Positions 3,123-22,315 of a stretch of 47,751 nucleotides of DNA are shown one piece after another (position 1 is the stretch's first letter; each line of letters opens with the position of its first letter). This stretch comes from a virus: positions 1-47,751 of the IMG/VR virus record IMGVR_UViG_3300030099_006321, one strand, 5' to 3'. The translations under genes and the position numbers were made by a program. The notes below the pieces were generated by a model, which was not told where the DNA came from, ran no database searches, and saw only the letters and a list, made by a program, of their open reading frames with translations.

Positions 3123-3380
3123 ATGATGTTGATGGACCGTCGAATTATTGTGAGGACACGTGTGTCATTCCTGAAAAAACAAAACAAATGGCATGCTTAC
3201 ATAAAGTACTGCGATGGTGGAATAAAAGATCTAGGATATTTTGACAGCCAAAAAGAAGCGCAGGATGCACGTAACGCAGATCTATCTGAGCACGATGGAT
3301 ATCGAACAAAGGCCAGAACTACCGGACTCAATAGTGGATGCTATGGATTCAGTAGTGGAAGCATTCGCGAGTGTCCATGA
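3123..3380 (+). CDS. AP2-like DNA-binding domain protein
   Basis: 85 residues. Residues about 14-50 read like the AP2 fold found in phage HNH proteins: KKQNKWHAYIKYCDGG followed by LGYFDSQKEAQDARN (pattern: Lys-Trp-x-Ala-Tyr-Ile, Leu-Gly-Tyr-Phe-Asp, acidic helix). No HNH nuclease is attached. The last 25 or so residues look unlike a domain and overlap the start of the glycosyltransferase in another frame. It may be an independent DNA-binding protein or the remnant of a homing endonuclease. Start at the first ATG of the frame, without a clear ribosome binding site. Confidence 0.55.
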   Translation: MMLMDRRIIVRTRVSFLKKQNKWHAYIKYCDGGIKDLGYFDSQKEAQDARNADLSEHDGYRTKARTTGLNSGCYGFSSGSIRECP

Positions 3381-4026
3381 AGAGGTTGATTATTACTTTT
3401 ATGACAATGAAAGAGCCGAAAAATTTCTCAAGGACCATTACGACGAGAAAGTTTTTAACGCCTATCGATCTCTTAAATCTCTTGCTTATCGTGCTGATCT
3501 CCTTCGCTATTGTATTTTGTTTAAAACTGGTGGTTGGTATGTTGACGCTGCTATTTCTTGGGTAACACCAGTCGAGATCCCAGATCATGTTGACCTGGTG
3601 GCCTTTAGAAGTATTGGTCGCTATTCAATGAACAGCTGGAGTTGTGACAACGGGGTAATTTTTGCAAGGGCTGGACACCCTGCATTGGAAGTTGCCATCT
3701 TCAATATCATCAACAACGTCGACAATAAGTATTACGGCATGACGCCACTCTGTCCAACTGGTCCATCTTTATGGGGACGAAGTATCGCTGAGTGCGCGAC
3801 AGAAACTTACGAAGGCTTAGTTTTCGGGGATTGTATGGAGCTGACCCCCAACCATCCCAATAAAAATAAGAGTTTTGTCCTTCCTGGTGGGACGATCATT
3901 GCTGAGTGCAAGCCTGCGAATGGCGGAGATTTAAAAGCACTAGGCGCAAAAGATACTAATAATTACAATGAGCTGTGGCATTCCAAACAGGTGTATCAAT
4001 CCCCACTTACAGAGTCACTGATTTAA
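3265..4026 (+). CDS. Glycosyltransferase, GT32-like (DXD sugar-binding region)
   Basis: The segment ERAEKFLKDHYDEKVFNAY followed by SLAYRADLLRYCILFKTGGW and YVDAAIS matches the core of the OCH1/GT32 DXD-containing sugar-binding family, in which R-A-D-L-L-R-Y and G-G-x-Y-x-D are hallmark stretches. Family members transfer hexoses from nucleotide sugars; here the acceptor is unknown (host surface polysaccharide, phage DNA or virion). I place the start at the ATG at 3265 because MHVTQIYLS aligns with the usual first strand; an in-frame TTG at 3241 adds eight basic residues. It overlaps the AP2 gene by 116 bases and the next glycosyltransferase by 20. Confidence 0.75.
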   Translation: MHVTQIYLSTMDIEQRPELPDSIVDAMDSVVEAFASVHEEVDYYFYDNERAEKFLKDHYDEKVFNAYRSLKSLAYRADLLRYCILFKTGGWYVDAAISWVTPVEIPDHVDLVAFRSIGRYSMNSWSCDNGVIFARAGHPALEVAIFNIINNVDNKYYGMTPLCPTGPSLWGRSIAECATETYEGLVFGDCMELTPNHPNKNKSFVLPGGTIIAECKPANGGDLKALGAKDTNNYNELWHSKQVYQSPLTESLI

Positions 4027-4768
4027 CGGTGGACCAGCCACGCTTGAGGGCATAACGCACAATTTTGTCACGTTGAGAGAAGAACTTGGCGTGACTTAAC
4101 CAGGTGTTGTTCGAGGTGGCGACGTTGTCGGTTCCTAATTCACGGGCATAGAGTGAACCCCAGAGTTGTGATTGACAAGGTGGGTGTGGTGGACAGAAGC
4201 TTTGAACCCCGGCAACAATTTGTGCGTTCGCAGCGAACTGAATGTCCTCTCCGTTCTCAAAGCTGAAAGGCTTGAAGGCCCAGAAGTATGCAAGGTTTTG
4301 CCGATCAAAGAACCAGGCATGTCCGACCAGATCGACGCGCTCAGTCTTTGGATTCATTGTTGGCCAGCCGCAGCGGTAATGGTTTTCATATCGGAATGAA
4401 TTCAGGGTGACCCCAGCAGTACCAAGGATGGGTGCTTTGTACCCTTCTTCAATCAATTTACATTCAGTCTGTATACAATTCTCGAACCACTTGGATCCTG
4501 GGATGGTGTCGTCATCAAAGATGGCGACGTACTTTGTGTCAGCAAGGAGTGCAGCCGCAAAACGCCCGTGGAATTTGACATTATCGCTGCATTCAAACAC
4601 GCGATCGACATTAATATAATCCAAGTCCAGATCTGCATTGTCCTCATGGTAATTCACCCAGAGCCAGATGTGCTTTGGCGGGAACGATTGTGCCCTGATG
4701 GCTTCTACTTGTCTAGCTAGATTGTGTGGCCTCCGGTACAAAGTGAGGATTACGGTAACATCGAGCAT
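4007..4768 (-). CDS. Glycosyltransferase, GT-A fold (GT2-like)
   Basis: 253 residues. The start MLDVTVILTLYRRPHNL and the metal-binding AIFDDDTIPG near residues 82-91 are typical of GT-A family 2 enzymes, which use nucleotide-diphosphate sugars. A later FENGEDIQFAANAQ stretch fits the acceptor-side acidic motif. It is tail to tail with the GT32-like gene, with 20 bases of overlap, so the two sugar enzymes are neighbours on opposite strands. Substrate and target are unknown. No Shine-Dalgarno is seen before the ATG. Confidence 0.75.
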   Translation of the reverse strand: MLDVTVILTLYRRPHNLARQVEAIRAQSFPPKHIWLWVNYHEDNADLDLDYINVDRVFECSDNVKFHGRFAAALLADTKYVAIFDDDTIPGSKWFENCIQTECKLIEEGYKAPILGTAGVTLNSFRYENHYRCGWPTMNPKTERVDLVGHAWFFDRQNLAYFWAFKPFSFENGEDIQFAANAQIVAGVQSFCPPHPPCQSQLWGSLYARELGTDNVATSNNTWLSHAKFFSQRDKIVRYALKRGWSTVKSVTL

Positions 4769-5070: not shown

Positions 5071-5238
5071 ATGGATGTCAGCAAGATCTGCCGCCATTGC
5101 GAATTAGCCGTGCCGATTGAATGTTATAAGGTCAATCCTGTAGAGCTAGATCAACATGATCCGGTCTGTTTTTATTGCTTAAGAAAGATCCACCTTAGAA
5201 AATTACAGGGAAGGTATGACAACCAGGAAGTGCACTAA
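5071..5238 (+). CDS. Small zinc-ribbon-like protein
   Basis: 55 residues with two Cys pairs, CRHC and CFYC, about 27 residues apart, typical of a small zinc ribbon. I start it at the ATG at 5071, which has AGGTGG nearby; an upstream in-frame ATG at 5035 adds 12 residues. It overlaps the endonuclease VII gene by 23 bases and is likely co-translated with it. The N-terminal part of endonuclease VII has a similar Cys pattern, so the two may be related by duplication. Role unknown; DNA binding is a guess. Confidence 0.6.
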   Translation: MDVSKICRHCELAVPIECYKVNPVELDQHDPVCFYCLRKIHLRKLQGRYDNQEVH

Positions 5239-5611
5239 GTGTGGTGAGGTTAAGCCACTCGATGGATTCCATAAAGATTGTAGGCGTGAAGGTACGTTTC
5301 GCAGGTGGTGCAAATCCTGTGTCGCTAGAGCGGGAAGAGTTACCAAATTAAAGAAGTATGGAATAACTATTGATCAGTATGAAATGATGTTGGAACGCCA
5401 ACATTACGGTTGTAAAATCTGTGGTCAACAATGTGCAACAGGCAGGTCACTTGCAGTTGACCACTGCCATCAGACTGGACGAGTCCGTGGTTTGTTATGT
5501 ATTAAGTGCAATAAAGCACTTGGTTTATTAGATGATGATGTGAATAGAATGAACTTGGCCGCACAGTATCTCACATGCTCAGGCGAGTGGTTGCCTGGAT
5601 GTTCATGTTAA
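5216..5611 (+). CDS. Recombination endonuclease VII
   Basis: 131 residues. A leading zinc ribbon (Cys6, Cys9, Cys32, Cys35) precedes the endonuclease VII domain: YGITIDQYEMML, zinc Cys66/Cys69 in CKIC, catalytic DHCH at 82-85, then CIKC with Cys95/Cys98 and NKALGLLDDD. T4 gp49 of this family cuts Holliday junctions and branched DNA before packaging. A strong AGGGAAGG precedes the ATG. The gene meets the Dps gene tail to tail. Confidence 0.92.
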   Translation: MTTRKCTKCGEVKPLDGFHKDCRREGTFRRWCKSCVARAGRVTKLKKYGITIDQYEMMLERQHYGCKICGQQCATGRSLAVDHCHQTGRVRGLLCIKCNKALGLLDDDVNRMNLAAQYLTCSGEWLPGCSC

Positions 5612-6199
5612 CGACATTGATCCAGCCTCAACTAAGGGTTGCCATTGCCCGCAATGGCTTCCTTTATTTCTCAGCGTTGCCTTGATCTTCCAGCTGGCAG
5701 TGAAGGCATCCTCGATGAGTTCGGCCAGGTAGTGCTCGACATCAGGAGCATCTTCTCTGGCTGCTGTCTTGATCACTTTCTTACATAGTATTCCAAAGAA
5801 CTCCAGGTTGTCTTTGTAGGTGATGAGCATATCGTTTGGATCGTAAGACTCGATATGGTTGAATTCTTTACATTCTTTGAGCAATCCCTTGGCACACATG
5901 GGAAGCAAAAAATTGAGAGATCGGACCAGCTCACCGACTCGATCAAGTTGTTTTGTGTGCTTCTTGTATTGTTTCTTGGTGAATTCGTGCACCGATATGA
6001 AATTCGATGCCTCGAAGTTCAAATGAACCAGATGACTCTGGATCTGCAGGTTGACGAGATAACTAGCGCACTTGATCAGCTCGTTGGCGAGTCGAGCTGG
6101 GCCTTCTTTTTTATTCTTGGGCTGGGGCTTATCGTCTACTACTTCATTCATCTTTTCCGCAGTGCTCATGACTGGTTGGATAGGCATCCCACTAAACAT
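5603..6199 (-). CDS. dps: Dps-like ferritin superfamily protein
   Basis: 198 residues. A lysine-rich N-terminal tail (residues 1-45) precedes a four-helix ferritin-like domain. The residues His59, His71, Asp86 and Glu90 have exactly the H-x11-H-x14-D-x3-E spacing of the Dps ferroxidase centre, and the later ITYKDNLEFFGILCKKVI and LAELIEDAF segments fit Dps helices C and D. Dps proteins form dodecamers that oxidise and store iron and may coat DNA; the basic tail could bind DNA. In a phage this could protect DNA from peroxide or manage host iron. The ferroxidase match is directly visible; function in infection is inferred. Confidence 0.82.
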   Translation of the reverse strand: MFSGMPIQPVMSTAEKMNEVVDDKPQPKNKKEGPARLANELIKCASYLVNLQIQSHLVHLNFEASNFISVHEFTKKQYKKHTKQLDRVGELVRSLNFLLPMCAKGLLKECKEFNHIESYDPNDMLITYKDNLEFFGILCKKVIKTAAREDAPDVEHYLAELIEDAFTASWKIKATLRNKGSHCGQWQPLVEAGSMSLT

Positions 6200-6279
6200 G
6201 ATTTACTTCTCTACTTTGCACTTTTTATTTTAGGATAGAGTTATTAGATCTAAGTGTGATGGTTTGCGTTAGCTAACTG

Positions 6280-7211: not shown

Positions 7212-7367
7212 TTATATGTCTCCAAGTAGATCATATACCATGTAGATGATAAACACGAACGCAATACACAAACCAATTAAACCTGTAGTGACAGGCGCAT
7301 AAAACACACAAGCATAACATGCTGAAACCAATGTTATTGCCACTAGGAACCTAGTTGGTTTATTCAT
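7212..7367 (-). CDS. MNKP-family membrane micro-protein (copy 1)
   Basis: 51 residues with start MNKPTRFLVAITLVSACYAC and two hydrophobic stretches. The first five to seven residues are shared with three other tiny genes at 8424-8922, defining a local family. The start ATG lies inside the end of the upstream gene (eight-base overlap), which implies coupled translation. Membrane location is predicted; role unknown. Confidence 0.6.
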   Translation of the reverse strand: MNKPTRFLVAITLVSACYACVFYAPVTTGLIGLCIAFVFIIYMVYDLLGDI

Positions 7368-7536
7368 TGAGTGTCCATTTTGAGTTGAAGAAAACTTTTG
7401 TCCAGAACCTGACCCAACGATTGGGAATAGGCATATAGCTGTAGTAATCAATCGTTACCGACTGATTTCCAAACAGGTCAAGTGTGGCTTTGACCGGACG
7501 TACCAAAGGTTTGGTAAAAATGGGTGGTTGTGACAT
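7360..7536 (-). CDS. Small protein of unknown function
   Basis: 58 residues (start MSQPPIFTKPLVRPVKATLD), rich in aromatics near the C-terminus (YYSYMPIPNRWVRFWTKVF), no membrane segment. It overlaps the following MNKP gene by eight bases and sits between it and the 110-residue gene, consistent with one leftward transcript. No family recognised. Confidence 0.6.
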   Translation of the reverse strand: MSQPPIFTKPLVRPVKATLDLFGNQSVTIDYYSYMPIPNRWVRFWTKVFFNSKWTLNE

Positions 7537-7545
7537 CAGTAGCGA

Positions 7546-7878
7546 TCAGCCTCGGTCTTGAACGCTGGACTCATGTTCTGTTCGCTCGCAAGGTCCAATA
7601 CGCTTGAGGTTAAATGCTGCGAGGTATTGATCCTCGATAGCACGTAAGTCTTTGGTCGTAATCGGATCATTCGATGATTTTTCACTACGTTTGTCAATCC
7701 ATTGTTGAAACAAGACGTTCCATTCATTATCAATAGTGTGATAATCGTTAGACAGATCATCCACTTCTTTGAAGAGACAAATAATCTCATCATGATCTAA
7801 CTGATAGATCTGCTCAGCTAAATCCTTAATTGTAAAGCTGGAGGTGATGGTGACCTTAGTCTTTCGTTTTTTTGCCAT
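7546..7878 (-). CDS. Unknown protein, paralogue of 8988-9293
   Basis: 110 residues with a conserved N-terminal half (IKDLAEQIYQLDHDEIICLF and KEVDDL, then WNxxxQQWIDKR) that is clearly shared with the protein at 8988-9293. Probably helical and acidic. The C-terminal halves differ. Its ATG overlaps the stop of the DUF3310 gene by one base. Function unknown; the duplication is directly visible. Confidence 0.7.
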   Translation of the reverse strand: MAKKRKTKVTITSSFTIKDLAEQIYQLDHDEIICLFKEVDDLSNDYHTIDNEWNVLFQQWIDKRSEKSSNDPITTKDLRAIEDQYLAAFNLKRIGPCERTEHESSVQDRG

Positions 7879-8216
7879 TAGTATGTGATGTTACCTTTTA
7901 AAGGTGTGTTTGAAGCTTCCAGCTTGGCAATCAAACGCGATAGATACCACTGCGCCTTCTTGGCGTCCTGCAAAGCGTTCTCTTTTAGCCATAACCTGAG
8001 GATATACCTCACGATTTGACCATGTAGCACTGCCATCTTGGGGGTTGGAGCCCGATCAACAGCATCTTCAATAGTCTCAATCGTTTCAACTTTGCCTTTT
8101 TTGTAGTACGAAGGATTGATTGGGTCATCGCAACGAATGTACGGCTTCAGGTCGATTTTGTCATCCATGTCAAAATTGTTTAATTTATATTGTTTTAGCA
8201 TATTTTTTCTTTTCAT
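7878..8216 (-). CDS. DUF3310-family protein (phage nucleotide-kinase-like)
   Basis: 112 residues. The core NPSYYKKGKVETIETIED, then GQIVRYILRLWLKEN and DAKKAQWYLSRLI follows the DUF3310 pattern (HYxxG..E.I..I, GNxxKYxxR, DLxKAxWYL). Members include T7 gp1.7-type proteins linked to nucleotide metabolism. The N-terminal residues MLKQYKLNN resemble the glycosyltransferase tail repeat. The start at 8216 is preceded by ATTGACCC, the same junction used in the 26-28 kb array; a second ATG at 8201 is possible. Confidence 0.75.
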   Translation of the reverse strand: MKRKNMLKQYKLNNFDMDDKIDLKPYIRCDDPINPSYYKKGKVETIETIEDAVDRAPTPKMAVLHGQIVRYILRLWLKENALQDAKKAQWYLSRLIAKLEASNTPLKGNITY

Positions 8217-8567: not shown

Positions 8568-8734
8568 TTTGACCAGGTTGGATGAGATAGCACATAATAT
8601 AGAAGGAGCATCGATGATAAGTTCAAGGTGACGATCATAGTAGTGTCAGGTGCATACCGCATCCCGATGCTGATCGCCATGCCGATCGCCGCAGGTACTA
8701 TCACCGAGATTAAGATTCTAGTTGGTTTGTTCAT
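8564..8734 (-). CDS. MNKP-family membrane micro-protein (copy 3)
   Basis: 56 residues, start MNKPTRILISVIVPAAIGMA, two predicted membrane stretches. Overlaps copy 2 and copy 4 by four bases on each side, so copies 4, 3 and 2 form one translationally coupled chain. The first ten residues match copy 4 almost exactly, showing recent duplication at the N-terminus. Confidence 0.6.
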   Translation of the reverse strand: MNKPTRILISVIVPAAIGMAISIGMRYAPDTTMIVTLNLSSMLLLYYVLSHPTWSK

Positions 8735-8922
8735 CTTCTGTCATAATCCCTGAATATACTTTTATTTCTTTCCCAGTCAAAAAGAGTTATCACAAAGTAT
8801 AAAAGAAGCGTTAATAACAGCGCTAGCACAACAACGATTGTAGTGATAGGTGTATTCGCCATGCCGATGAAGAGCACCGTGACCGTTGTCACCGAGATTA
8901 AGATTCGAGTTGGTTTGTTCAT
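8731..8922 (-). CDS. MNKP-family membrane micro-protein (copy 4)
   Basis: 63 residues, start MNKPTRILISVTTVTVLFIG, two membrane stretches and a charged C-terminal tail (FDWERNKSIFRDYDRR). An upstream GTG-type extension exists, but the shared MNKP start and the pattern of the other copies point to the ATG at 8922. At 8984-8998, upstream, the DNA again encodes MNKQI then a stop, probably a decayed fifth copy. Confidence 0.6.
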   Translation of the reverse strand: MNKPTRILISVTTVTVLFIGMANTPITTIVVVLALLLTLLLYFVITLFDWERNKSIFRDYDRR

Positions 8923-8987
8923 TGAAGGATCGGCCCTGCCGGTGTGACAGGGCACCAATTAAATCATACACTAGATCTGTTTGTTCA

Positions 8988-9293
8988 TTAGTTGTTTAGC
9001 AAGCCGAGCTGGGCTTTCTTTTTTATTCTGGGGCTTGACATCCATGGAAATCCGTCGTTTTTATTTGTAGAAGCATCCGAGACTTTTTGTTTTTTTCTAT
9101 TGCGTTTGTCAATCCACTCTTGCAAGCCTTCGTTCCATTCAAATCCATCTTCGTTAACCATAAACAGATCATCCACTTCTTTGAAGAGACAAAGGATTTC
9201 ATCAATATTTAGGTCGTAGATCTGCTCAGCCAAGTCCTTGATTTTTAAGCAGACGGTGATGGCGACCTTATTAGTCTTGCGTGTCGTTGTCAT
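8988..9293 (-). CDS. Unknown protein, paralogue of 7546-7878
   Basis: 101 residues sharing IKDLAEQIYDLNIDEILCLF and KEVDDLF with the 110-residue protein downstream. Its start overlaps the stop of the glycosyltransferase by one base. Duplicated with flanking genes in the 7-10 kb block. Function unknown. Confidence 0.7.
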   Translation of the reverse strand: MTTTRKTNKVAITVCLKIKDLAEQIYDLNIDEILCLFKEVDDLFMVNEDGFEWNEGLQEWIDKRNRKKQKVSDASTNKNDGFPWMSSPRIKKKAQLGLLNN

Positions 9294-10081
9294 TAAAGGA
9301 CCTCGATGTCACCTTTTAATTGATAGCGTTCTAGCATGTCTTGCTCACCATTGAAAGAGAAAGTATGCATACCAGTATGTGTAAGCTTGACATTCTTATG
9401 TGACCAGACTTCAAAGCCACACTCTCTGGCACGATGACAGAATGCATAGTCTTCTGTTAGATAGACACGCTTGTCCTGTTCGTTAGCACCTGATGTGATG
9501 GTGTCAAACAGATCAACGTATTCCACTCTGGTCTGCTCGTAGTAATTACCATCAGGCATCTCGAATGCCAAGGCGTGCCGGTAGTGATCCATCATTTCAC
9601 TGACCACATGACGTTTGATCATCATGAAGCCAGTGCCGGTGTAGAGAACTTTGTACCCCCATTTATTTTCCTCCAGGACATTATTGGTGGCATTGTTTTC
9701 TGCAAGGGGATAGGACTTTACAGGAGCAACACCAGCCACGATGTCCTGGTCGGCAACCACCAGGCGCATGACATCGAGCGGTTCGAAACCCATATCGTTG
9801 TCGACGAACAGAACATGAGTCCAATCATCGAGTTCATCTGCCATTGAGATCAGCTGCGACCTGCAGAGACTGATGATCGTGGCGTATGGATCGATGATCC
9901 AATTGAATGCAATCCCAAGGTTTGTAGCAAACAGGGAGAACTCCAACAGACTTTCCAGCAATGGTGCAGTGACAGTGCTGTTGTGTGCTGGGATTAAAAA
10001 GAGAATAGAAGGTGGATTGTCTGTGCGATGTACTGTGTCCAGCTGTTTATCGATGAAGTCATTTAAGGCAGTTTTCTTCAT
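9293..10081 (-). CDS. Glycosyltransferase, GT-A fold
   Basis: 262 residues. ILFLIPAHNSTV near residue 25 and the metal-binding stretch HVLFVDNDMGFEP near residues 88-100 are GT-A hallmarks; GTGFMMIKRHVV and DYAFCHRARECGFEVW fit the acceptor half of phage GT2-like enzymes. This is the third glycosyltransferase in 10 kb. Target unknown: DNA, virion or host glycans are all possible. The C-terminal MLERYQLKGDI recurs as a remnant at 7165-7203. It overlaps the next gene upstream as ATGA. Confidence 0.75.
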   Translation of the reverse strand: MKKTALNDFIDKQLDTVHRTDNPPSILFLIPAHNSTVTAPLLESLLEFSLFATNLGIAFNWIIDPYATIISLCRSQLISMADELDDWTHVLFVDNDMGFEPLDVMRLVVADQDIVAGVAPVKSYPLAENNATNNVLEENKWGYKVLYTGTGFMMIKRHVVSEMMDHYRHALAFEMPDGNYYEQTRVEYVDLFDTITSGANEQDKRVYLTEDYAFCHRARECGFEVWSHKNVKLTHTGMHTFSFNGEQDMLERYQLKGDIEVL

Positions 10082-22228: not shown

Positions 22229-22315
22229 TGGTAGGAGCAGTGGGACTTGAACCCACACGACCGTGAGGCCAAAAGATTTTAAGTCTTTTGTGTCTACCAA
22301 TTCCACCATGCTCCC
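22229..22315 (-). tRNA. tRNA-Leu (anticodon UAA), CCA encoded
   Basis: Minus strand: acceptor GGGAGCA/TGCTCCT, D-arm GGTGGAATTGGTAGACAC, anticodon arm AAAGA-CTTAAAA-TCTTT with UAA, a long variable arm (GGCCTCACGGTC), and T-arm GTGGGTTCAAGTCCCAC. Discriminator A followed by CCA. All class II Leu tRNA elements are present. It lies directly after a terminator T tract and before a protein gene. Confidence 0.95.

Follow-up and report, generated by a model that had tools for sequence, protein, structure and literature searches.

What does a virus of cyanobacteria do with a gene for a Dps, and is the encoded protein a working mini-ferritin? These questions are raised by a 47,751-nucleotide stretch of viral DNA (IMG/VR record IMGVR_UViG_3300030099_006321, hereafter the window). 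A preliminary description read the minus-strand open reading frame at 5603–6199 as a phage-encoded Dps with a complete ferroxidase centre. Pfam profile, predicted fold, active-site residues and conservation all bear this out: the frame is a genuine gene, hereafter dps, and its 198-residue product is a member of the Dps family of mini-ferritins, which ordinarily sequester iron and limit the harm done by peroxide.

Profile searches and sequence comparisons establish the family. The 198-residue protein matched Pfam Ferritin at 37.2 bits (3.4e-9; cut-off 24.5), and its match to phrog_3636 (1.5e-19), for which PHROG gives the label 'DNA binding protein', covers positions 8–148 of the 149 in that phage profile. 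A tblastn search recovered an orthologue in Synechococcus phage S-EIV1 at 1e-42, and the ATG start codon chosen for dps is backed by orthologues with N-termini of the same M[YF][TS] type. Sequence comparison with solved structures ranked Campylobacter jejuni Dps (3kwo) first, at 9.6e-8 with the single protein and at 1.8e-14 with a 22-sequence profile. Two narrower NCBIfam equivalogs scored below their cut-offs, namely cyanobacterial DpsA (NF052461; 17.7 bits against 300) and E. coli Dps (NF006975; 16.7 bits against 114). An opposite-strand frame at 5855–6238 was judged to be a shadow of dps.

The ferroxidase centre is intact. Dps proteins space its residues as H-x11-H-x14-D-x3-E on helices A and B, and the window protein has this spacing in His59 (codon at 6023–6025), His71 (5987–5989), Asp86 (5942–5944) and Glu90 (5930–5932), all on the minus strand. 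A profile alignment pairs these residues one-to-one with those of the C. jejuni (3kwo) and Helicobacter pylori Dps chains, and they also line up with E. coli Dps, confirming the exact spacing first proposed for them. All four are invariant in 71 of 71 distinct viral orthologues. A second set of 57 dps genes, picked through a neighbouring gene and overlapping the first in part, retains the spacing in 56; the remaining one (L262) has a broken frame in the segment seen. A chance origin of the spacing is excluded, because six-frame open reading frames from 77 related contigs, 971,632 residues in all, contain the pattern 57 times, 56 times in dps itself and once elsewhere. Median dN/dS over 214 pairs of dps is 0.118, and by this measure the gene is under strong purifying selection.

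Structure prediction leads to the same family. We built a single-chain AF2 model from an alignment of 29 sequences from the window and related loci; its mean pLDDT of 79.4 is pulled down by disordered ends, and the four long helices lie mostly at 88–97. DSSP assigns helices to residues 32–61, 67–94, 102–109, 121–148 and 152–180, so that the predicted fold is a ferritin-like four-helix bundle (A–D) with a short BC helix (102–109) and no fifth helix. Among the PDB matches listed, nearly all are Dps proteins or mini-ferritins (Z 19.5–21.8 over ~140–160 residues), including Thermosynechococcus elongatus Dps (Z 21.7) and Nostoc Dps4 (Z 20.9). Because both the model and its structural matches are Dps-like, the non-ferritin fold that the preliminary description named as grounds for abandoning its reading did not materialize. 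Three phage proteins in BFVD that are named prohead protease (A0A6J7WPK9, A0A6J7XDU5 and A0A6J7WIS1) also match the model, and it is possible that Dps-like domains are fused to head-maturation proteins in other phages.

Both ends of the protein extend beyond this core. Residues 1–31 (6107–6199, minus strand) form a predicted disordered tail, with pLDDT below 50 at residues 1–6 and 8–30, that opens with the motif M[YF][TS]..P; the M[YF][TS] start is common to most members of the clade. This tail had been described as basic; a basic tail that binds DNA is a feature of some Dps only. Its length and a basic patch near the core stand, but its overall basicity is marginal: residues 1–36 hold six K/R against five D/E, and the only clearly basic stretch is a core-adjacent lysine patch (KPQPKNKKEGPAR). 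A net charge of just +1, both for the window protein and for the family median (range −6 to +10), hardly justifies calling the tail basic. A search for the N-terminal motif on virion and other proteins of the loci compared found none, and a virion-targeting role for the motif was rejected on the finding that no virion protein among these loci carries it. At the other end, a C-terminal extension (residues 179–198; 5606–5665, minus strand) is absent from the other aligned orthologues, has low pLDDT at residues 181–197, and likely arose through loss of an ancestral stop codon. The extension spans a hairpin followed by a T-rich tract (5641–5658, plus strand), a weak terminator candidate for the convergent endonuclease VII gene from a consensus scan that gave two hits in the region against 0.9 expected.

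Gene neighbourhood places dps with replication. The gene shares its strand and side of the window with the PolA, SSB-like and ThyX genes of a replication and nucleotide module, whereas TerL and the probable virion genes lie on the opposite strand in the right half. Its end overlaps by 9 bases a convergent endonuclease VII/HNH-type gene (5216–5611, plus strand; Pfam Endonuclease_7, 8.2e-22), which is a neighbour and not part of dps function. Three groups of unrelated phages carry dps beside a sliding clamp and GTP cyclohydrolase, beside thymidine kinase, or beside dCTP deaminase and anaerobic RNR. The surroundings in the window also include two glycosyltransferase-like genes (3241–4026, plus strand; 4007–4768, minus strand) and a duplicated stretch (7212–7901 and 8731–9319) with two pairs of small paralogous frames, 7546–7878 with 8988–9293 (~75% DNA identity over ~230 bases) and 7212–7451 with 8731–8958. 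The sole tRNA found in the window is a tRNA-Leu (anticodon taa) at 22229–22315.

Shared genes assign the window to the lineage of Synechococcus phage S-EIV1. Identities to S-EIV1 are 74–83% for TerL (in two pieces), 64% for PolA and 73% for a PD-(D/E)XK protein, with many more matches besides. The virus is thus a cyanophage, as the preliminary description held; its further argument from an ocean setting finds no support, the relative S-EIV1 being derived from a high Arctic lake. Near-identical DNA was sought in phage records and none was found; one contig (L001) matches the window at 99.25% over 8.3 kb and encodes an identical Dps protein. A scan with four sequences located 119 related viral loci, 80 of which were kept. 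When contigs were picked through a neighbouring gene instead of dps, 38 lineage contigs had both flanking genes, and 32 of them carried dps. The other six (L240, L241, L244, L246, L249 and L250) are natural dps-minus relatives with the neighbours kept. The gene is common but dispensable in the lineage; because these six contigs are without it at the same site, it is not essential, and the 'core gene' status suggested by a first sample (4 of 4 contigs) was dropped in favour of the larger one.

A phylogeny that included Dps from other phages and from cells bears on the origin of the gene. The viral clade comes out as a single group (100/100 support) with a long stem, and it joins neither the Dps of Lactobacillus, Campylobacter and Cronobacter phages nor the cyanobacterial Leptolyngbya protein. 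The tree sets the clade next to 3kwo weakly (76/79); its branches are long, and we take from it the unity of the viral clade, not the placement among cellular Dps. Recent capture from a cyanobacterial host is unlikely, judging by the few cyanobacterial Dps compared, because the clade stands apart from the Leptolyngbya protein and the DpsA match falls far below its cut-off. The suggestion of host capture also meets the observation that the closest solved relatives are of epsilonproteobacterial type rather than cyanobacterial DpsA. A first scan of cellular genomes with four sequences found no dps of this clade, and a pattern scan with 22 sequences across 84,980 bacterial and archaeal genomes returned only three MAG contigs (L091, L092 and L093), both scans depending on short conserved patterns that a diverged cellular source could escape. 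The three contigs are binned to Puniceicoccaceae, Gammaproteobacteria and Euryarchaeota MAGs. Two of them were read: L092 plainly comes from a phage of the S-EIV1 lineage, and L093 has phage-like genes. Because of L092, the MAG bins holding this viral dps are probably contaminated.

Combining these observations, we propose that the gene probably supplies a working Dps mini-ferritin inside the infected cyanobacterium, where it would sequester iron and consume peroxide during phage replication. Its subunits would assemble into a 12-mer and bind Fe(II) at centres to which one subunit contributes H59 and H71 and its two-fold neighbour D86 and E90. Hydrogen peroxide, or O2, would then oxidize the Fe(II), and the ferric mineral would be stored in the cavity. 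Both Fenton reagents would in this way be removed during copying of the phage genome, at a time when the host's photosystems leak peroxide and its iron proteins are taken apart. The tail might bind DNA as well, although these steps do not require it; assembly, iron oxidation, timing and benefit are parts that we infer.

Conservation by itself cannot tell iron storage from a role on DNA, and the main competing explanation is that the protein acts chiefly as a DNA-binding protein, its tail binding, condensing or shielding phage or host DNA either intracellularly or as a packaged component of the virion, with iron chemistry secondary. The long conserved disordered tail, the core-adjacent lysine patch, the clade-wide N-terminal motif and the PHROG label would all suit such a protein, and the prohead protease entries in BFVD hint that Dps-like domains can be linked to head proteins elsewhere. 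Yet the net charge of the tail is +1 here and as the family median, the gene sits in the replication module away from the virion genes, the N-terminal motif is found on no virion protein of the loci compared, and DNA binding alone would not demand four invariant ferroxidase residues. We consider this explanation unlikely, and the compaction of DNA in the cell or virion that the preliminary description offered as a second use is not supported, given the weakly basic tail and a gene outside the virion module. The conserved ferroxidase centre would also suit an iron reservoir, in which iron from dismantled host proteins is passed to phage or virion components and peroxide protection of DNA plays no part. 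The Ferrojan Horse hypothesis places iron in phage tails and would fit such a reservoir, as would the position of dps beside RNR and nucleotide genes in an unrelated phage. However, no direct sign of an iron-dependent phage enzyme was seen next to dps in the window, and the ThyX of both S-EIV1 and the window is a flavin enzyme; we regard a reservoir as very unlikely. Control of iron and peroxide is favoured over both DNA condensation or packaging and a reservoir because the ferroxidase centre is invariant and the gene lies in the replication module.

It is also conceivable that dps does nothing for the virus and is a decaying or neutral passenger. Six lineage contigs without the gene, the extra C-terminal tail of the window copy and the broken copy in L262 could be read in this light, but a dN/dS of ~0.12, a centre conserved in 71 of 71 orthologues and the identical protein encoded by the near-identical contig L001 already contradict it, and we give the passenger reading almost no weight.

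Several residues set the clade apart and raise a further scenario. Position 60, directly after the first ferroxidase His, is Leu in 54 of 71 orthologues and Phe in 17 of 71, and Trp in none. A Trp beside this His is common in Dps but not universal, and is hence not a defining feature; Leptolyngbya Dps has Phe at the same position, and the protein of phage CP21 has Tyr. Because Leu or Phe replaces Trp across the whole clade, the reaction may differ from that of the usual Dps. H56, E63, Y78, H81 and C102 are invariant in 71 of 71 viral orthologues, and Y119 and E133 in all 70 that cover those positions; H56, E63 and Y78 are present in some cellular Dps too. The S-EIV1-type proteins might be a virus-only Dps subfamily, long apart from cellular Dps, in which the loss of Trp, clade-specific residues such as H81, C102, Y119 and E133, and the M[YF][TS]..P tail suit a viral task, for example covering phage DNA as it replicates or putting iron into the virus particle. 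We think this scenario improbable.

Control of iron and peroxide during cyanobacterial infection is a plausible function for a viral Dps, and the lineage offers ways to examine it. Because S-EIV1 carries the gene and is in culture, the role of dps is directly testable, and the presence of the gene in most but not all members of the lineage allows phages that have Dps to be compared with natural relatives that lack it. A search of the literature on cyanophage Dps and ferritin, outside which the S-EIV1 genome paper fell, found no study of the role of this gene.

The nearest known counterpart is the S-EIV1 protein itself (AHV82153, in KJ410740), which is annotated 'DNA-binding ferritin-like protein' and is an orthologue with 41–44% identity over 90% of the length. 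The two share their ferroxidase residues, a related N-terminus and a genome lineage, but the S-EIV1 protein has 184 residues and lacks the C-terminal extension of the window protein. Its gene is followed by one on the same strand, where the window has the convergent endonuclease VII gene instead. That following gene (AHV82152; L003:15555–17021) is annotated as a sulfate adenylyltransferase; neither it nor its positional counterpart in L005 (2900–3769) has a Pfam match at 0.01, and the annotation seems doubtful.

Beyond this lineage, Dps proteins with the H, H, D, E centre occur in Lactobacillus phages (Lb338-1, LpeD, 3-521 and Semele), Campylobacter phages (CP21 and CP220) and Cronobacter phage A24, where dps often adjoins replication or nucleotide genes; these belong to a different clade from the S-EIV1 type. 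Published work has described Dps in Lactobacillus phages (PMC6669764), Dps in gut 'Gratiaviridae' and other gut phages, with a proposed role in controlling oxidative stress during infection (PMC8008677), and ferritin among the ROS-defence genes of freshwater phages (PMC6802176). The comparison with the Gratiaviridae Dps and freshwater phage ferritins covers their proposed role, which is the one proposed for the window Dps. On the cellular side, C. jejuni Dps (3kwo) retains a Trp next to its first ferroxidase His and is a 152-residue chain without the long N-terminal tail, whereas cyanobacterial DpsA and Dps4 share the fold of the window protein with a weak sequence match, and a Dps4-type Leptolyngbya protein has His where the window protein has D86. 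Phage-borne Dps is thus already known, and the window adds a further case in a distinct and widespread viral clade.
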